Both the position numbers and the translations under genes were made by a program. 25,621 nucleotides of DNA from positions 31,608 through 57,228 of the forward strand of contig NW_001914944.1 of assembly GCF_000208925.1 (NCBI RefSeq). Direction: 5' to 3'. Shown here piece after piece: positions 1 to 25,560 of the stretch; position 1 is the stretch's first letter; every line of letters begins with the position of its first letter. The notes beneath the pieces are model-generated. The model was not told the origin of the DNA, did not search any database, and was given only the letters and a program-made list of their open reading frames with translations. This DNA is from Entamoeba histolytica HM-1:IMSS. Its lineage: Eukaryota; Evosea; Mastigamoebida; Endamoebidae.

Positions 1-497
1 AAATATCAGTTGAAAAGAATCATGTACCAAGAACATCAGTTTATGGAGTTATTTTAGTTCATAAAAATAATTTTCCACATTTATTAGTATTACAATCAAA
101 TTTATCAATGGATTTAAAAGATGAAATTCATCTTGTTGGAGGAAGATTAAAAATTGGAGAAGATGATCCTGTTGAAGGATTAAAAAGAAAATTAAGAAAA
201 AAAATGTCAATGGAATATATTACACATTATGAAATAGGAGAATTACTTGGAACATTTTATAGAATAGAATATGATAAAAATTTATATCCATATATTCCAG
301 TTCATGTAAGTCAAGTCAAAGAAATTATTAATATTTATATGATTCATCTTGTTGAAAAATGTGATTTTAAAATATTTGATACAGACAAATTAAGTTCAAT
401 TCCACTTTTTGCTTTACATAATAATTTTGAAAAATACAATATTACACTTTGTTCTATTCCAACTTTAGTTTCAAGGTATCTTATGATTTATGGTTAA
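1..497 (+). CDS. NUDT21: Cleavage factor Im 25 kDa subunit (CFIm25/NUDT21), 5' partial
   Basis: This is the C-terminal 164 residues of the small subunit of mRNA cleavage factor Im, which binds UGUA elements in pre-mRNA and helps choose the poly(A) site in the nucleus. The frame is open from base 3 and ends at TAA 495-497. The ATG at 108 is internal, because homologous sequence (VPRTSVYGVILVHKNNFPHL) precedes it. Family landmarks are the Nudix-like stretch GGRLKIGEDDPVEGLKRKL, then YPYIPVHVSQVKE, and a tail reading IPTLVSRYLMIYG, close to the animal ending LLSRFNFIYN. The Nudix box lacks the REXXEE glutamates, as in other CFIm25 proteins, so it should bind RNA and not hydrolyse nucleotides. 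The N-terminus lies outside the window. The next gene starts 96 nt downstream on the same strand. Confidence 0.9.
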   Translation, partial: ISVEKNHVPRTSVYGVILVHKNNFPHLLVLQSNLSMDLKDEIHLVGGRLKIGEDDPVEGLKRKLRKKMSMEYITHYEIGELLGTFYRIEYDKNLYPYIPVHVSQVKEIINIYMIHLVEKCDFKIFDTDKLSSIPLFALHNNFEKYNITLCSIPTLVSRYLMIYG

Positions 498-593: not shown

Positions 594-1666
594 ATGAATG
601 CACCTAATTTAAGAAGTGAAGGATTAACTCAAGAATCATTAAAAGTAACACAAAACTTTATAATAGGAGGATTAACACAACCACTTCCTGATTCATTTCA
701 AAGTGTAGAAATTGGAAGAATTACAATGCTTATGTTTTATTTAGGTGCATATAAAATATTATTTCCAGAACAACCAATTAACAAAGTAATAGATACAGAA
801 AAAACTATACAATATATTTTAACATCACTGAGTGTAAAAAGTGATTCAAAAGAAGTATTTCAAGGATTTACAGGATGTGAAATGTATGGAATATTTAAAC
901 ATGGACATATTAGTTATACATATGCAGCACTTGCATCACTTTCACAATTAGGATATGATTTAAGAAGAATTGATAAATCTAGCATTGTAAATTCATATCA
1001 TACATTATTTAGAAAAGAGTGTAAAGGAGTATTTGCAACAAGTCTTGAAGAAGAAGGAGAATATGATATTAGATTTATATATTCATTATGTGCTACATGT
1101 TATTTATTAAATGATTGGGGAAATATTAATAAAGAAATATTATTTGAATTTATTATGAGTTGTAGAAGTTATGATTTTGCATTTGGTCAAATGCCAAAAA
1201 GAGAAAGTCATGGAGGATCAACATATTGTGCAATTCAAAGTTTATCATTAATGGGAATGATAAATAGATTAGATCATATTGAAGAATTAGTTCAATGGCT
1301 TGTTCAAAAAAGTTATTTAGGATTTTCAGGAAGAATAAATAAACCAGCAGATACATGTTATAATTATTGGATTGGTTCAACATTAAAAACACTTGGATAT
1401 GAACATTTAATAGATAAAAAATTTGTATTGTTTGTTTGGAATTATTTAAATAAATAATAAAAAAAAAATAAGAATTTATTATATATAGAGCATTTACAGA
1501 AAATTGTGTATCAAAAAGATTTGGAGGAATTGGTAAAAATCAAGAAGCATTGCCAGATCCAATGCATACATTTTGTTCATTAACAGGATTATCATTAATT
1601 GGAGCATTACCAGTAAAATATACAATTGATTCTAGAATAGGAATTGAAAAACCATCATATCTTTGA
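594..1666 (+). CDS. Protein geranylgeranyltransferase type I, beta subunit (two exons)
   Basis: This is the catalytic beta subunit of the cytosolic enzyme that attaches geranylgeranyl to the cysteine of C-terminal CaaX boxes, acting as a heterodimer with an alpha subunit encoded elsewhere. Exon 1 is 594-1429 and exon 2 is 1489-1666. Splicing the 59-nt intron gives 337 residues and removes an early stop at 1455. Prenyltransferase beta repeats are visible: FTGCEMYGIFKHGHISYTYA, SYDFAFGQMPKRESHGGSTY, FSGRINKPADTCYNYWIG and FGGIGKNQEALPDPMHTF. By family comparison the zinc ligands are D253, C255 and H305; H305 is in exon 2, so the spliced form is needed for activity. ESHGGSTYCAI and the short length fit GGTase-I better than farnesyltransferase. 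The convergent TBP gene ends 47 nt away. Confidence is high for the beta family, a little lower for the GGTase-I subtype. Confidence 0.9.
1430..1488 (+). other. Spliceosomal intron in the GGTase-I beta gene
   Basis: The 59-nt intron begins GTTTGT, the usual Entamoeba donor, and ends TATATAG. Exon 1 ends in phase 2 (tt), and the first base of exon 2 completes a Leu codon. Removing it joins the frame ending ...DKKFV to LAFTENCVSKRFGGIG and runs to TGA 1664-1666. The intron contains in-frame stops, so retaining it would cut the protein at 287 residues and lose the third zinc ligand. Confidence 0.9.
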
Positions 1667-2559: not shown

Positions 2560-3768
2560 ATGAATAGAATATTAAAAATGAATAATAATGAACGCAGTTC
2601 ATTAGATACAAATAAACAAGAATTGAAAGAAATAATTTTAAGAGAAATTAAAATTAGAACTAAACTCCTTCAATCAAATCAAAGATATAATGGAATGAAA
2701 TGTGAAGGGTATTGTAGTGTTCTTATTGGAGATGAAGTTCCAGGGAAATTTACAGTTAGTACATTTCCACCACCAATTGAAGATGAATTTTTTTCAATAG
2801 AAAATTTATTAAAAATAATTGAAAGATTTGAAGAGGATGCAGAAATTATTAATGCAGTAATGTATTGTATTGCTATTATGGTATTAGAAATAACAAATAG
2901 AAGTAAATTTAAAAGAAGTAATGGAATAGAAATTATTAAAAAGATTATTAGAAGATATGAATATAATTTAACAGTTTTAAGATGTTGTTGTTCAATATTA
3001 GCAAATGTTGGACCATATATTATTGATTTAGAATGTATTAAAGAAATTGAAAGAATAATAAAAATTCATCCATATGATCAATTTATTCAAACAGCATTAT
3101 GTGCAACATATGCAAATTATGCAAGAATAAATCCAAGAATTATTGTTGAAAATGGGATTATAGAAAAAATGAAACCAATGTTATGTGAAATAAATAATAC
3201 AGATTTACAATATTCAGTATTAGCAGCATATTCAAATATATCAAGAAATTGTACTATTGGACAAAAGAAATGTATTGAAAATAAAATACATGAAATAATA
3301 ATAAATAAATTAGTAAATGAAAAATGTACAACACAATATTGGAGAGTTTCATGTAATACATTAGGATGTTTAGCAATAAATGGATTAGGATATGAAAGTA
3401 ATGAAGTAGTTAAATATGCACAAAGAAAAGGATTAATTGATAAAATTATAGAAATTCTTCATATTATTGAACATAAAGAAATACAAGATAAAAGATTTGA
3501 AAGAATGTATGGATGTTTAGCAAAATTTGCACTTGTTCAACCAATTAAAAGAATTCCTAAATTAATATGGATTTGTTATCAACAATGTTTAAAAAAAGAA
3601 TTACTACCAAATCCATTAAATGAAATATTTCATAATGATTCATTTAAATGTCATATTTGTAAAAAAATATGTGATCCAATGATGATAAGAAGTATTAAAT
3701 TTCAAGAAAAATTAATATTAATGTCATATTGTAGTATAAAATGTTGGAAAAAAAGACATGAAAATTAA
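2560..3768 (+). CDS. Armadillo-type repeat protein with C-terminal MYND-like zinc finger
   Basis: This is a 402-residue protein that I cannot match to a named gene. Residues of about 70-340 are all-helical repeats of armadillo style: VLRCCCSILANVG, TALCATYANYARINPRII, YSVLAAYSNISRN and WRVSCNTLGCLAINGLG recur at roughly 40-residue spacing. The last 41 residues carry C364-x2-C367-x3-C371, then C391-x3-C395 and H400 inside YCSIKCWKKRH, resembling a compact MYND-type finger. An armadillo plus MYND-like layout suggests a protein-interaction adaptor; partner and location are unknown. The start at 2560 is the first ATG in frame after an A-rich leader; a second ATG lies six codons on. The gene converges on the XPB helicase with only 8 nt between stop codons. 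Confidence 0.75.
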   Translation: MNRILKMNNNERSSLDTNKQELKEIILREIKIRTKLLQSNQRYNGMKCEGYCSVLIGDEVPGKFTVSTFPPPIEDEFFSIENLLKIIERFEEDAEIINAVMYCIAIMVLEITNRSKFKRSNGIEIIKKIIRRYEYNLTVLRCCCSILANVGPYIIDLECIKEIERIIKIHPYDQFIQTALCATYANYARINPRIIVENGIIEKMKPMLCEINNTDLQYSVLAAYSNISRNCTIGQKKCIENKIHEIIINKLVNEKCTTQYWRVSCNTLGCLAINGLGYESNEVVKYAQRKGLIDKIIEILHIIEHKEIQDKRFERMYGCLAKFALVQPIKRIPKLIWICYQQCLKKELLPNPLNEIFHNDSFKCHICKKICDPMMIRSIKFQEKLILMSYCSIKCWKKRHEN

Positions 3769-12665: not shown

Positions 12666-12675
12666 GTATTTAAAG
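12666..12675 (+). promoter_or_regulatory. GTATTTAAAG core-promoter TATA element
   Basis: This is an exact match to the Entamoeba TATA consensus GTATTTAAA(G/C). It begins 39 nt upstream of the ATG of the BspA-like gene, which leaves room for transcription to start about 30 nt downstream with the very short leader typical of Entamoeba mRNAs. Confidence 0.85.
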
Positions 12676-12704: not shown

Positions 12705-14375
12705 ATGTTTGGAATTAAAGATAGAAAAAAATATGGAATGAAAATACCAGAAAAGTTTTGTGGAATAGCTGATGAATGTTTTTCTGGATGTAATAATCTT
12801 AGGCAAATTAATATACCATCAAATATTGAATCAATAGGAGACTCTTGTTTTTCGGAATGTACATCATTAACAACAATTAATATACCAACAAGTGTTAGTG
12901 AAATAGGAGATGAATGTTTTAGTAGATGTACATTATTAAAATCAATTACTATTCCATCAAGTATAAGTAAATTAGGATATGGATGTTTTTCGGAGTGTTC
13001 ATCATTAACAACAATTAATATACCAACAAGTGTAATTGAAATAGAAAGGAGATGTTTTAATGAATGTAAGTCATTAAGAACAATTGCTATACCAACAAGT
13101 GTAGTTGAAATAGGAGATAATTGTTTTGATGAATGTAAAATATTAACATCAATTACGATACCAACAAGTGTAAGTAAAATAGGGGATGGTTGTTTTTCAG
13201 AATGTTCATCATTAAGAATAATTTCTATATCTACAAGTGTAATTGAAATAGGATATGGATGTTTTAATGAATGTTCATCATTAAAAACAATTAATATACC
13301 AACAAGTACAAGTAAAATAGGAGACAATTGCTTTGATGGATGTAAAACATTACAATCAATTGACATACCAACAAGTGTAAGTAAATTAGGAGATGGATGT
13401 TTTTCAGAATGTTCATCATTAGACTCAATTACTATACCAACAAGTATAAGTAAATTAGGAAATAATTGTTTTAGAGAGTGTTCATCATTACAATCAATTG
13501 ACATACCAACAAGTGTAAGTAAATTAGGAAATAATTGTTTTTCTGGATGTACAAGATTAAAAACGATTACTATATTCACAAGTGTTAGTAAAATAGGAAG
13601 TTCTTGTTTTTATGGATGCTCATCATTAACAACAATTAGTATAGAAGATGTAAAATATATAAGTGAAGAAAGAATATTTATGAATGAACCAGTGTTAATT
13701 AGTATTGAAATACCAAAGAATTTAAAAACAATAAATGGAAAGAAGATTGAAAAGAAAGATATTAATGAATTTATTATTCCATCAACAATCACTAAATTAG
13801 GAAATGGTTGTTTTGAAGAATGTGAATCATTAAAATCAATTACTATACCAACAAGTGTTAGTGAATTAGGAAATGATTGTTTTGAAGAATGTGAATCATT
13901 AACAACTATTAATATACCAACAAGTGTTAGTGAACTAGGAGATAGTTGTTTTAGTTCTTGTTCATTATTAACGTCAATTAATATACCAACAAGCGTTAGT
14001 AAAATAGGAAATAGTTGTTTTTATGGATGTACAAGACTAAGAACGATTAATATACCAACAAATGTTAATGAACTGGGAAATAGTTGTTTTGATGGATGTT
14101 CGTCATTAACATCAATTAATATTCCATCAAGTGTAATTGAAATAGGAGATTGGTGTTTTTCAGAATGTAAGTCATTAAGAACAATTACTATACCAACAAG
14201 TGTAATTGAAATAGGAGGGTGGTGTTTTAATGAATGTAAATCATTAACATCAATTAATATATCCACAAGTGTTATTGAAATAGGAGATAATTGTTTTGAT
14301 GGATGTCCGAATGAGTTGAAAAAGAATGAGGTATTAAGAAAGATATATTATAAAGATGACTGTGTCATTGTTTAA
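12705..14375 (+). CDS. BspA-like leucine-rich-repeat protein with C-terminal CaaX box
   Basis: The 556 residues are almost entirely Treponema pallidum/BspA-type LRRs (LRR_5) with a 23-residue period: IPTSVSKLGDGCFSECSSL and variants. I count about 21 CF-x2-C repeat cores. They form two blocks, 13 repeats then 8, separated by a non-repeat spacer (about residues 312-363, containing ISEERIFMNEP and KTINGKKIEKKDINEF). There is no signal peptide or membrane helix. The C-terminus ends DCVIV, a CaaX prenylation box. Entamoeba BspA-like proteins such as EhLRRP1 are reported to lack a signal peptide yet reach the plasma membrane, with prenylation proposed as the anchor; this gene fits that pattern. 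A likely role is surface contact or ligand recognition, with the ligand unknown. The start is the first ATG after the TATA element. Confidence 0.9.
   Translation: MFGIKDRKKYGMKIPEKFCGIADECFSGCNNLRQINIPSNIESIGDSCFSECTSLTTINIPTSVSEIGDECFSRCTLLKSITIPSSISKLGYGCFSECSSLTTINIPTSVIEIERRCFNECKSLRTIAIPTSVVEIGDNCFDECKILTSITIPTSVSKIGDGCFSECSSLRIISISTSVIEIGYGCFNECSSLKTINIPTSTSKIGDNCFDGCKTLQSIDIPTSVSKLGDGCFSECSSLDSITIPTSISKLGNNCFRECSSLQSIDIPTSVSKLGNNCFSGCTRLKTITIFTSVSKIGSSCFYGCSSLTTISIEDVKYISEERIFMNEPVLISIEIPKNLKTINGKKIEKKDINEFIIPSTITKLGNGCFEECESLKSITIPTSVSELGNDCFEECESLTTINIPTSVSELGDSCFSSCSLLTSINIPTSVSKIGNSCFYGCTRLRTINIPTNVNELGNSCFDGCSSLTSINIPSSVIEIGDWCFSECKSLRTITIPTSVIEIGGWCFNECKSLTSINISTSVIEIGDNCFDGCPNELKKNEVLRKIYYKDDCVIV
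12760..14310 (+). repeat. 69-bp tandem repeats of the LRR coding region
   Basis: The coding sequence is made of 69-bp units (23 codons), broken near 13640-13790 by a unique spacer. Many units share near-identical stretches such as ataccaacaagtgtaagtaa, so slippage or unequal exchange within the gene, or gene conversion with paralogues, is plausible. Confidence 0.85.
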
Positions 14376-16355: not shown

Positions 16356-16365
16356 GTATTTAAAC
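16356..16365 (+). promoter_or_regulatory. GTATTTAAAC core-promoter TATA element
   Basis: This is an exact Entamoeba TATA consensus, starting 36 nt upstream of the ATG of the GTPase gene. A CCAAT sequence lies further up (16300-16304); its role is unknown. Confidence 0.85.
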
Positions 16366-16391: not shown

Positions 16392-19175
16392 ATGTCAAGA
16401 GTAGTAGTTAGATTTATTTTAAATGGACAATGCGTTGCAACTAAACCACTAAATTCACAAGACAAATTGAAAACAGCAAGAGAGAAAATAAAAGAAAAGA
16501 TGTCTGACTCTCAACACTTTTTAACAAAAGAAGGAGATATAATTGATAAGAATGATGAAGAGTGTTTTACTGTAGGAGATGTAATTGATGAAAAAAGAGT
16601 AATAAATATTAAAGGAATAGAAGATAAAAAAGAAATAAGAATAAAGATAAATGATAAGATAATTACTACTATTGAAATAGATATTAAAACACCATTAAGT
16701 GATGTTAGAAAAATAGTTCAAAACATTCCAGATTCAGCATATTTCTATACACTTGACAATGATAAAATTGAAAGAAATACTGAAGAAGAATTTATAGTAG
16801 AAGACATAATAAATAATGATGAAATTATTCTTAAAGAAGAAAAAGAAAATATACCAGAAATCAATGATATAACAATTGGAATATGTTTGAATGGAAAACC
16901 AAAGATAAAAAAGCAATTCAACAAGAATATTTCTCTTTCAGATCTTAGAAAAGAAATTGAAAATGAAAAAGAAATTCCAAAAGACTTTTCTTTTGAAGAT
17001 CAAGATGGATTTAAAATATCAATTAATGATGAACAATCATTAAAACTAACATCTATTTTGCACGATAATAAAATCAATATAAAAACAGAAGTTACTGATA
17101 CCTCTCCTAATAATATTGAAGTTAGTCTTAAAGATGAGAAAGAAAATACACCAGAAATCAATGATATAACAATTGGAATATGTTTGAATGGAAAACCTAT
17201 GCTTAAAAAGCAATTCAACAAGAATATTTCTCTTTCAGATGTTAGAAAAGAAATTGAAAGACTACAACAAATTCCGAAAAGGTTTGATTTTGAAGATCAA
17301 GATGGATTTAAAATATCAAGTGATGATGAACAATCTTTACAATTAACATCTATTTTGCATGATAATAAAATCAATATAACAACATTGACAGAAGACATAA
17401 TAAATAATACATTAACTAATGTTTCACCCAGTAAAACAACAACACAGTGCACTCCATTAAGTAATAATTGTAATCAATGCTTCCCAAATAAAAGTAACGA
17501 TTCTGAAACTTCAACAAGTAATACAGATGTGTCTGAACCAAATGTTCCAATTGAAGGAAGTATAAGATTGGAAAATCATGAAAATGGAAAATTAAAAATA
17601 TATTTATATCCAAATCAGCCATTTAATCAAAAAGATGAGAATGATGCAATTGGTATTCTAGTTGTTGGTCAAACAGGAAGTGGCAAAACTACATTATTGA
17701 ATAGTTTTGTAAATGCATTATATGGAATAAAAATAACAGATGACTTTAGATATATAATTATAAATGAAGATAATTTAGAACAACGTAAAGATCAATCTAA
17801 AAGTCAAACAAGTCAAGTAACAATTTATAATATTAAAAGAACAAAAAGAACACCACCAATCAAAATAATAGATACACCAGGATTTGGAGATACAAGAGGA
17901 ATTGCTTATGATAGGGAAATTACTAAACAAATAAAAGAAGCATTTGAAAATAAAGTATTAGATTTAAATGCTATTTGTTTTGTTGCACAATCAAGTAATG
18001 CAAGATTAACTCTAAGTCAACAGTATATATTTGGGAATATTATCAACTTATTTGGGAAAGATGTTAAAAAGAATTTTATTGCAATGCTTACATTTTGTGA
18101 TGGTAAAACACCACAAGTCATAAATGCATTACAATCAAAAGAATGTGATTTCAGTACAATTATTCCAGAAATAGACTCACCATGGTATTTAAAATTCAAT
18201 AATTCAGCTATTTATGATGATAATACAGAAGATAAATTTACACAAATGTTTTGGGAATTAGGTATGAAGAATTTTGATGATTTTATAACAAAATTATTAA
18301 AACTACCAAGAAAATCATTAGAGAAATCAAGAGAAGTGTTGAAGAGAAGAGAGTGTATTAAGGCACGAATTGAAGACTTAAAAACAACATTAAATAGTCA
18401 ATTGGCAAAAATGAATGAGATAAAACAGATATATGAACAGCTGAATGAAAATCGAGAAAAAGTTAAAAATAATGAAAACTTTACTTTAACTACACAAGTA
18501 GAAGTACAAAAAAAGGTTGACTTAAAACCAGGAGAATATGCAACGAATTGTAATAAATGTCATAAAACATGCCATTATCCATGTCATGTTCCATTTTTTA
18601 TTTCAGCATTTACAAACAGATTTTGTACATGCATTGAAAACAAACATTGTAGAGTATGTGGTTGTCATCATACAGAACATGTAAATGAATCATGTAAATA
18701 TGAATATGTAATAGAGACAAAAGAACAAAAATTGGAAGATGTGTATAAAAGATATAGTGAAGGTAAAGAAGGTATGGCTAGTGCAGAAAGTATGTTAATA
18801 AGGTTAGAAGAAGATTATTATAAAATTCAAAGTGAATGTTATGACCAACAACAAGAAATTATCGATTGTGTTAATACATTATCTGAAATTGCATTAAATA
18901 AGAAAGTGACCAGTTCAAATGAATACTTAGACATGTTGATTAAAACAGAAAATGAAGAAAAGAAACAAGGATATGAAGCAAGAGTTGAAGGATATAAAGA
19001 ACTTAAAAAAACGAATGAAATGATAGAAGATATTATGAAAAATTCAACAACAAAAAAGAGTAAGGAAGAAATTAATGCAGAAGTTAAAAGAAGAATGAAA
19101 GAAGAAGAAAAAACAACAAGAGTTAAAACAGGGAGAAGTTGGTTATCAGCAAAACCAAATAACCAAAAGAAATGA
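16392..19175 (+). CDS. AIG1/septin-like GTPase with four N-terminal ubiquitin-like repeats and a Cys/His cluster
   Basis: This 927-residue protein has an uncommon layout. Residues 3-75, 80-150, 157-231 and 256-331 are four copies of a roughly 70-residue beta-grasp-like unit (VRFILNGQCVATKPL; ITIGICLNGKP...ISLSDLRKEIE...FEDQDGFKIS). A Ser/Asn/Thr linker with four Cys follows (332-390). The G domain (about 418-640) has G1 GQTGSGKT (426-433), G3 DTPGFGDTRG (494-503) and a non-canonical G4 region, LTFCDG. Conserved-looking FVAQSSNARLT and YLKFNNSAIY also appear. Next comes coiled coil (about 640-700), a cluster of about 14 Cys/His (720-768) and more coiled coil to a basic tail. There is no signal peptide, membrane helix or CaaX. 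The G domain resembles AIG1/GIMAP and septin-related GTPases and large uncharacterised GTPases of fish and fungi (from memory). Function is unknown. Confidence 0.8.
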   Translation: MSRVVVRFILNGQCVATKPLNSQDKLKTAREKIKEKMSDSQHFLTKEGDIIDKNDEECFTVGDVIDEKRVINIKGIEDKKEIRIKINDKIITTIEIDIKTPLSDVRKIVQNIPDSAYFYTLDNDKIERNTEEEFIVEDIINNDEIILKEEKENIPEINDITIGICLNGKPKIKKQFNKNISLSDLRKEIENEKEIPKDFSFEDQDGFKISINDEQSLKLTSILHDNKINIKTEVTDTSPNNIEVSLKDEKENTPEINDITIGICLNGKPMLKKQFNKNISLSDVRKEIERLQQIPKRFDFEDQDGFKISSDDEQSLQLTSILHDNKINITTLTEDIINNTLTNVSPSKTTTQCTPLSNNCNQCFPNKSNDSETSTSNTDVSEPNVPIEGSIRLENHENGKLKIYLYPNQPFNQKDENDAIGILVVGQTGSGKTTLLNSFVNALYGIKITDDFRYIIINEDNLEQRKDQSKSQTSQVTIYNIKRTKRTPPIKIIDTPGFGDTRGIAYDREITKQIKEAFENKVLDLNAICFVAQSSNARLTLSQQYIFGNIINLFGKDVKKNFIAMLTFCDGKTPQVINALQSKECDFSTIIPEIDSPWYLKFNNSAIYDDNTEDKFTQMFWELGMKNFDDFITKLLKLPRKSLEKSREVLKRRECIKARIEDLKTTLNSQLAKMNEIKQIYEQLNENREKVKNNENFTLTTQVEVQKKVDLKPGEYATNCNKCHKTCHYPCHVPFFISAFTNRFCTCIENKHCRVCGCHHTEHVNESCKYEYVIETKEQKLEDVYKRYSEGKEGMASAESMLIRLEEDYYKIQSECYDQQQEIIDCVNTLSEIALNKKVTSSNEYLDMLIKTENEEKKQGYEARVEGYKELKKTNEMIEDIMKNSTTKKSKEEINAEVKRRMKEEEKTTRVKTGRSWLSAKPNNQKK
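16854..17090 (+). repeat. Upstream copy of a 297-nt-spaced direct repeat in the GTPase gene
   Basis: This encodes ubiquitin-like repeat 3. It matches 17151-17380 at a constant offset of 297 nt (99 codons). The first 45 nt (from ccagaaatcaatgatataac) are identical, and further near-identity runs to ttttgca(c/t)gataataaaatcaatat. Confidence 0.9.
17151..17380 (+). repeat. Downstream copy of the 297-nt-spaced direct repeat in the GTPase gene
   Basis: This encodes ubiquitin-like repeat 4, much closer to repeat 3 than either is to repeats 1 and 2, which points to a recent in-frame duplication. The main differences lie around residues 286-300 (RKEIERLQQIPKRFDF against RKEIENEKEIPKDFSF). Confidence 0.9.
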
Positions 19176-22853: not shown

Positions 22854-25560
22854 TCAATTAATAGATATATCCATAATTGGATTTTCTTCATATTGAGAAG
22901 TGATTATTTCAGTTTCTTCAATATGCTCTATTGTTGTAATAGAGTTAATTTCTAACATACTCGCATTAGATTGTTCTTCTTCTAATGTGCTGCCAGAATT
23001 TCCTGTGTAAAACATTAAGTCTTTCATATTTTTGATAATTATTGTTTGTATGATTGTGGAAAAGTATAATTGTAATTTTAGTGATTTTAATCTTCTTATA
23101 GACTCTTTATGTATTAATCCATTTATTGATAATATTACAGGTATTATTTCTACATATATTATTTCTCTATTATTTCTTAATTTCTCTTGTAAATCTTTGT
23201 ATTTATTTATTTTATGAATATAATTTAATTCTAAATTATTATCCTGACATATAGCAACATCTATAATATATCATTTCTTTTCTGTAATATTTTGATAATA
23301 TATATCTTATATTCTAGCATGGAAAGAATTTTCATTAACCAATAAATCTTTATTGTAAATTATGACCATTTTATCATTATTAATACATTTAGGAGGATTA
23401 TTAAAATCAAATGAATCAAATTCAGTAAAGTGTGTAATTAATATATGTTTATATATTTGTTTACAAACATAATCATGTTTTAATATTTGGTTCTTTTTCA
23501 TTACAGGACATCCTAACAATATATGATTAATAGATGCTATAGTGTTATGACAATGTTTACAATATTTTAAAGCATCATTTTTGAGTATTTTAGATTTAAT
23601 ATTTCCTGTCATAGTTACTCCTTCTTGCATCTTTACTATTTGGAGGAATGCATTTATTTTTATATTTAATGACCTCCAAGTGGCTACTGTTAATTTCTTA
23701 TCATTGAAAGTGCCATTTGCACATCTTATATATTCTCCACATTTCTTTTCTTTCCATTCATTTAAATATCTTTCATTTAATTCATTATTTACCCATTCAA
23801 ATACTTCCTTTACATTGTGCTTTCTTTCATTTAATTCTATTACGTTCATTAATTCATTAAAATTAATCTTCTTACAAAATACTTTCTTCATTCTTTTAAT
23901 TATTCAATTTGGATTTTCTTTTATTGTTTCTATCATTTCTCCTATTTCTGTGCTTGATCTCCACTTATATTTTAAATATATTCTTAATAATTCTTTAGCG
24001 CATTCATCTCTTGCTGACATTAATCCTAATCCAAATTCATTTATTTTAACATATAGTATACTTTTTGGGATATTTCTACTGTATAATTGGAGTTGTATTA
24101 ATGCTTTTCTTATCTGTTTATCTATCTTCTCCAATTCTCCTAGTTTCCATGTGACAATACAAAATCCATATCTTAATTTGGAGATTATATCACTATTAAT
24201 CTTCTTATTGTAATGAGGCTGCTGTATTTCATAGTGTTTAATGATGATAAAATAGAAGACACATCATTTGATATTCTTGTACAATATTTATTAATATTTA
24301 TTTTATCTCATATTTCAATACCAAGATATTTATAAGGGTTATCATTAGTTATTCTTGGTAATTCAGCTAATTCTCCATTTATTTGACTATTAATATTATT
24401 CATTATCCCACTCTTTTCTACATTAATTTTTAATCCTATTGCATTAAATATTTCTTTAGTTAATTTGTGTGCTTTTTCCATTTCATCGAGGCTATTATTC
24501 ATTATCTTTAAATCGTTCATATATAATATGTGGTTTAACTGGACTTGTTTTTCTTCTCCATTCATTTTAATATTTAGTTTGTTAATTTGTTTATCTAATT
24601 GTTTAGATAATATGTCAATAGATAATACAAATAAAAGTGGAGATAGGCTGTCACCTTGTATTATTCATCTTTCTACATTAATTATACCCACACTTTCTTG
24701 ATTATAATATAAATTAAGATATGTATTATTTAATATATATAATATACTATTAATTACTGCTAGTGGGATATTAAAATAAATCAAGCATTGTTTAATCCAT
24801 TGATGATTAATACTATCATATGCTTTGGATATGTCATAATATGTTTCTACCAACTTCCATTTATTCTTTAATAATAATTGTTGGATTATAATGTTGTATA
24901 ATAATCCTTCTTTTGATGCGTATGTATATTTCTTACATCCAATTTGATTTAATGATAGTTGTTTTTCAATTGGATTTAGCATCAATTGATTTTCTATTTT
25001 CATCTTTAATATTGATGTATATACTTTTAACAGACAAGTTAAACAAGTTATTTGTCTGTAATTCTGTGGGTCTAATTTATCTCATTTTTATATATTAATA
25101 TTGTCCTTCCTTGAATAAAATGAGGAGGTATTTCATTAGGATTATTCAACCATTCATTAAATAATTTTAATAAATATTTCATTGGTTGTTCTAATTATTT
25201 AATCCAAAATCATTGTATTTTATCAACTCCCGGCGCCTTCCAGTTAGCAATAAATTTAATATCACAGTCTAGTTCATTGGGAGTGATTATTGATATTCTA
25301 TTATTAATTCTGCTTTCAATTAATATTTCATATAAATTAATACTCAGGAAATCTATATTAGTGTTAGTTTCATAGATTCATTTCCAGAAATTAATAGTGG
25401 AGATATTATCTGGATATTCATCTTATTTAGATTTATTTAGATGTTGCACTTTCCATACCCCCTCATTTTATAATTCCATCTTATTCTTTTCCAATTATTC
25501 TTTCTTGCTTCTATTTCTATTCTTTTCATCTTTCTGAGGTATTTATAGTAGTTTATTTGT
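22854..25560 (-). pseudogene. LINE ORF2 relic: reverse transcriptase plus restriction-like endonuclease
   Basis: Conserved blocks are found in order on the minus strand: NWKAPGVDKIQ*FWIK (about 25242-25201), YRQITCLTCLLKVYTSILK (to 25004), YYDISKAYDSINHQWIK (about 24840-24780), QGDSLSPLLFVLSIDILSKQ (24655-24596), YMND (24523-24512), then KLRYGFCIVTWKLGELEKID and NEFGLGLMSARDECAKELLR. The finger C-x2-C-x8-H-x4-C follows (23561-23508), then the endonuclease core DIYYQNITEKK*YIIDVAI and a C-terminus ending at 22854. In-frame stops: TAA 25423-25425, TGA 25378-25380, TGA 25210-25212, TAA 25195-25197, TGA 24665-24667, TGA 24308-24310, TGA 23904-23906, TAA 23307-23309 and TGA 23271-23273. The frame shifts near 25085 and between 24310 and 24240, and probably near 25460. 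The polymerase YxDD motif is YMND. Not functional. Confidence 0.88.

Follow-up and report, generated by a model that had tools for sequence, protein, structure and literature searches.

A large GTPase of Entamoeba histolytica with predicted tandem beta-grasp domains and a conserved Cys/His module is one member of a widespread multi-copy family

The window (the whole stretch of Entamoeba histolytica DNA that was analyzed, 25,621 nucleotides) contains an open reading frame for a large GTPase, and this protein belongs to a multi-copy, widespread family whose conserved core is the G domain together with the Cys/His module (Table 1). An earlier sequence-only reading had named the gene the best candidate for an undescribed system in the window; since it is one member of such a family, it represents no system particular to the window. 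The remark of that reading that no function is known for this layout has held, as neither a characterized member nor a functional study of any family member was found in the literature searched. We tentatively propose, at somewhat less than even confidence, that the protein, a GTPase of the AIG1/Toc34/septin group, may form a self-assembling scaffold under nucleotide control, in which an arm serves for docking and a variable tip for recognition.

Table 1. Position and basis of the features of the GTPase gene and its product
Feature	Window positions	Strand	Basis or remark
TATA-like element GTATTTAAAC	16356..16365	+	Exact match; 26 bases separate element and ATG
Whole ORF, 927-aa large GTPase	16392..19175	+	Open from ATG to stop codon
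Beta-grasp repeat 1, residues 3-75	16398..16616	+	Repeat alignment, repeat HMM, AlphaFold2, Foldseek
Beta-grasp repeat 2, residues 79-149	16626..16838	+	Repeat alignment, repeat HMM, AlphaFold2, Foldseek
Beta-grasp repeat 3, residues 159-232	16866..17087	+	Same basis; within direct repeat 16812-17087
Beta-grasp repeat 4, residues 258-331	17163..17384	+	Tandem copy of repeat 3
Linker, residues 334-380	17391..17531	+	pLDDT < 50
TRAFAC G domain, residues 400-640	17589..18311	+	Pfam, PDB sequence search, AlphaFold2, Foldseek
P-loop (G1) GQTGSGKT, residues 426-433	17667..17690	+	G426 and K432 in 125/125 aligned proteins
G3 DTPGFGDTRG, residues 494-503	17871..17900	+	D494 in 122/125, G497 in 125/125
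G4 variant TFCDG, residues 567-571	18090..18104	+	T567 and D570 in 125/125; F568 in 124, C569 in 117
FNNS motif, residues 602-605	18195..18206	+	N603 in 125/125
Long helix 1, residues 644-686	18321..18449	+	AlphaFold2; precedes Cys/His module
Cys/His module, residues 698-780	18483..18731	+	Alignment conservation, AlphaFold2
Putative metal ligands C720 to H763, ten conserved Cys/His	18549..18680	+	Conservation
Long helix 2, residues 798-833	18783..18890	+	AlphaFold2; follows Cys/His module
Basic C-terminal tail	19125..19172	+	Net charge +6 in last 18 residues; ends NQKK

The only Pfam match above cut-off in the window protein was the general GTPase model MMR_HSR1 (E 1.6e-5), while AIG1 (PF04548), Septin and the GBP model were not among the 21 families listed at E<=1. 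Its best sequence matches in the PDB were septins (E 1e-3). The predicted G domain resembles solved GIMAPs; its structural scores with Toc34 and GIMAP are no lower than those with septins, and the score of EF-Tu is close to that of Toc34. This fold, together with the G1 and G3 motifs, places the protein in the AIG1/Toc/septin group of TRAFAC GTPases, in line with the AIG1/septin-like assignment made from the letters, and the P-loop and DTPGFGDTRG are intact, as had been read. The G4 motif had been described as non-standard; TFCD is indeed odd, but because Thr567 and Asp570 are constant in all 125 aligned proteins, the deviation is a family trait. FNNS is the probable G5-region loop, a role suggested by its position.

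Among 38 relatives analyzed with Pfam (E<=0.01), Septin was matched by 26, AIG1 by 16 and Dynamin_N by 7. The Septin matches, the ranking of septins among PDB sequences and the common G3 DTPGFGD would agree with a septin-like cytoskeletal protein whose G domains polymerize into filaments bundled by the helices. However, we regard this as decidedly unlikely for the window protein, which does not match Septin at E<=1 and carries extra domains, and whose structural scores with Toc34 and GIMAP are at least equal; to our knowledge, a metal module and a beta-grasp chain are not septin features. From the GIMAP/IAN proteins (AIG1, PF04548) it differs by TFCD as G4 and by the absence of an AIG1 match at E<=1, and we know of no beta-grasp chain or Cys/His module in GIMAPs. 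Toc34 and Toc33 are plant chloroplast import receptors that are not known to have such flanking domains. GBPs are similar in being large GTPases with a helical C-terminal part; some members have a CaaX end, and their G4 is TLRD.

The AIG1 matches, and the AIG1-type names that several relatives carry in UniRef, could also indicate a larger member of the described virulence-linked E. histolytica AIG1 family. According to the available parts of the publications, proteins of that family have calculated masses of 20 to 45 kDa, VIDTPGL as G3 and an HVCIVWTKC box (PMC2823695); one of them affects adherence and virulence, and the family has been linked to protrusions (PMC5884625). The window protein, with 927 residues, contains neither VIDTPGL nor HVCIVW and has no AIG1 match at E<=1, so that the roles of the published family should not be transferred to it. 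On these described features of size and motifs, we consider membership highly improbable.

AlphaFold2, run on an alignment of 125 sequences (full-protein mean pLDDT 82.1, pTM 0.57), gave four domains of the ubiquitin-like beta-grasp fold in the N-terminal part, mostly with pLDDT above 90, which agrees with the four ubiquitin-like folds expected there. In a Foldseek search of the PDB with the full model, linear tetra-ubiquitin complexes ranked first, followed by GIMAP7 and Toc34. The top match, 7yui_A (305 residues), had an E-value of 7.9e-11 over 345 columns at 13% identity; its TM-score of 0.26 by target and rmsd of 20 imply that the domains match in succession, whereas their arrangement does not. 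The four front segments are also mutually alignable: in 1000 shuffles, none of the six pairwise local scores was reached more than three times. The DNA at 17109-17384 is 89% identical to that at 16812-17087, a direct repeat of 276 nt with a spacing of 297 nt. The linker behind the repeats is probably disordered, to judge from the model.

An HMM derived from the four repeats found one to six of them in 168 of the 181 nearest relatives listed, and none in the cod and Paramecium proteins included there. The E. histolytica counterpart P0002 has four repeats as well, and the close paralog L002, identical to P0003, has three. Sequence comparison gave no clear assignment of these repeats to a known family. 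The repeat profile retrieved nothing convincing from the PDB (5 sequences at E<=10, best E 0.56, no ubiquitin), and among 26 representative repeats PB1, Ubiquitin_2 and UBX were each weakly matched by one, Ubiquitin_2 at 0.047. In the window protein, PB1, a beta-grasp family, was matched at residues 173-218 below its cut-off (19.0 vs 23.6 bits).

Four beta-grasp domains in a row and the top Foldseek rank are what the arm shares with linear polyubiquitin, and the sequence-only reading had suspected a link to the ubiquitin pathway. The tetra-beta-grasp chain could imitate linear ubiquitin for ubiquitin-binding partners, and the Cys/His module, under control of the G domain, could work as a zinc module that is E3-like or binds ubiquitin. 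However, nothing we found ties the protein to this pathway: identity to polyubiquitin in the Foldseek alignment is 13%, ubiquitin sequence profiles gave no more than the one weak Ubiquitin_2 match, Gly-Gly is absent throughout residues 1-336, no RING, RBR or other zinc-finger family is among the 21 Pfam families at E<=1 (residues 700-780), and the number of repeats varies among the relatives listed. A ubiquitin-pathway machine thus appears quite improbable.

Two long predicted helices flank the Cys/His module, where the sequence-only reading had placed coiled coils. Modelled alone, residues 640-927 reached a pTM of 0.78, and the structure search with this model returned no matching solved structure. 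The full Cys/His signature was present in 288 of 298 relatives among the matches listed, so the cluster nearly always follows this G domain; frog and Daphnia relatives are without the full signature. Eight of the ten likely ligands are retained in all 23 Entamoeba rows of the alignment. From this pattern of Cys and His residues we infer that the module would bind metal.

These 298 proteins, drawn from the best 120 matches of each search, comprise 181 on the Entamoeba side and 117 on the animal side; the named sources include E. dispar, E. nuttalli, Paramecium bursaria and cod, as well as many fish, three sharks, a frog and Daphnia. Most are annotated as "hypothetical", "uncharacterized" or "G domain-containing", and a few bear borrowed toxin, enzyme or P-loop names. 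A tree of 52 leaves unites the 16 Entamoeba proteins in a single clade with support 1.0 and groups the seven animal leaves at a support of only 0.29. Two or three P-loops occur within one protein in P0124, P0125, P0134, P0212, P0281 and P0286, the last three of which have two Cys/His stretches each.

The front end of the protein is exchanged within the family: among the matches listed, one to six beta-grasp repeats are found on the Entamoeba side and SNTX/MACPF domains in many fish. In the cod relative P0186 and the shark protein P0284, MACPF_SNTX, Stonustoxin_helical, Thioredoxin_11 and fn3 domains precede the G domain, which is followed by the Cys/His module at positions 1125 and 1088, respectively. 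These SNTX-like fish and shark proteins with a C-terminal GTPase have the same G domain as the window protein, with TFADG in 108 and the full Cys/His signature in 113 of the 117 listed, but differ in these N-terminal domains. PF24674 was present in about 56 of 120 animal-side rows among the matches listed (hand count). In the parts available of one description, SNTX has four domains, and no GTPase is named among them (PMC10566576).

The two sides also differ at the C-terminus. A Cys at position -4 was found in 135 of the 181 nearest relatives listed, mostly as CxIF, where about 4 would be expected from the overall Cys content, a count of related and hence not independent sequences; it was found in 1 of 117 animal-side relatives among the matches listed. 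CVIC ends occur in 6 of the 28 proteins P0001-P0028, which were taken as Entamoeba. The window copy lacks the Cys at this position and therefore has no CaaX-like end. At 594-1457 (+) the window also encodes a prenyltransferase beta subunit of 287 residues, with geranylgeranyltransferase type I beta as its best PDB match (E 1.5e-36). Many relatives have CxIF ends, for which geranylgeranyltransferase type I would presumably be the fitting enzyme type; the presence of this gene in the neighborhood of the GTPase is probably a coincidence.

A search of the E. histolytica genome revealed six intact copies, one fragment running into a contig end, and additional weak, stop-containing matches, part of which may belong to other GTPases; those on C171, C117, C46, C367, C333 and C384 are possibly decayed copies. 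Of the five paralog frames, four are identical to E. histolytica database proteins, and the window protein is 94% identical to another. The 90 bases upstream are much alike across the six intact copies. The 10 bases GTATTTAAAC, which we take to be the Entamoeba TATA-like motif, are found upstream of four of the six, and the other two carry one-base variants. Within the whole window there are 2 exact matches, where 0.37 are expected and at least two were obtained in 5 of 100 shuffles. The second, GTATTTAAAG at 12666-12675, is located 29 bases 5' of the ATG of a frame at 12705-14375 (+) that encodes a 556-residue BspA-type leucine-rich repeat protein (Pfam LRR_5, E 3.3e-167).

Evolutionary rates differ strongly along the protein. 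In a calculation of the Nei-Gojobori type (own script), pooled over the 15 pairs of the six E. histolytica copies, which are non-independent and have an AT bias outside the model, dN/dS stayed below 1 in four regions: residues 1-150 with 0.50 (0.33-0.81), the G domain with 0.33 (0.22-0.47), the first helix with 0.30 (0.18-0.50) and residues 783-890 with 0.55 (0.35-0.92). The highest of the five values, 1.18 (0.81-1.77), was that of residues 700-782 with the Cys/His module, where L006 is gapped and the interval includes 1; the linker window 331-390 reached 0.97. In all 15 pairs the module had a higher dN/dS than the G domain; its value was above 1 in nine pairs, 1.00 in two and below 1 in the remaining four. 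At 80-90% identity of the G domain, non-ligand positions of the module were 46% identical in 208 Entamoeba pairs vs 69% in 291 others, but the first helix differed in the same direction (66% vs 81%). The rates of the module are compatible with diversifying selection as well as with a relaxed constraint under which the ligands were retained.

If constraint is relaxed, the fast-changing Cys/His loop could mark a decaying multigene family, in which the window copy no longer has its membrane anchor and may be of little functional use. The stop-containing genomic matches, the absent CaaX end and an interval that includes 1 are consistent with this view, but the constrained G domain, the eight of ten likely ligands kept in every Entamoeba row, the six intact frames and the conserved upstream stretch argue against it, and we consider such decay unlikely.

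The scaffold GTPase that we favor would work in several steps. GTP binding drives G-domain pairing and assembly in GIMAPs and Toc GTPases, and by analogy with these related folds the window protein may self-assemble in the same manner. The assembly would be located at a membrane, via the prenylated C-terminus in relatives with a CaaX end and perhaps via the basic tail in the window copy. The Cys/His module would form the metal-folded tip of a helical stalk; this tip would recognize a target and differ between paralogs. The beta-grasp chain would serve as a docking or oligomerization arm, with repeat duplication determining its length. The shared upstream sequence suggests that the paralogs may be co-expressed as versions with different tips. 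The setting is likely defence, phagosome or stress biology, the cellular role being the least certain step.

One GTPase core with a near-invariant Cys/His signature extends over amoebae, a ciliate, sharks and fish, and partly to frog and Daphnia. It could represent an unrecognized, eukaryote-wide family of cell-autonomous defence GTPases, with an ancient core of G domain and metal-folded stalk tip, lineage-grafted arms (a polyubiquitin-shaped chain and prenyl anchor in Entamoeba and nearer kin, a perforin-like domain in fish and sharks) and a tip under diversifying selection in Entamoeba, a broader view that we hold to be rather unlikely. Should this core prove to be a switchable membrane scaffold, it would form a link between the Entamoeba AIG1 genes, GIMAP immunity and the SNTX-like perforins of fish. 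The unusual G4, residues 640-927 without a solved match and the fast-changing tip offer testable parts.

Elsewhere in the window, a 402-residue frame at 2560-3768 (+) has several Cys near its end and no Pfam match at E<=1. Two frames at 23307-25003 (-) gave weak reverse-transcriptase and zf-RVT matches (E 2e-4 and 0.007) and are probably remnants of a non-LTR element.
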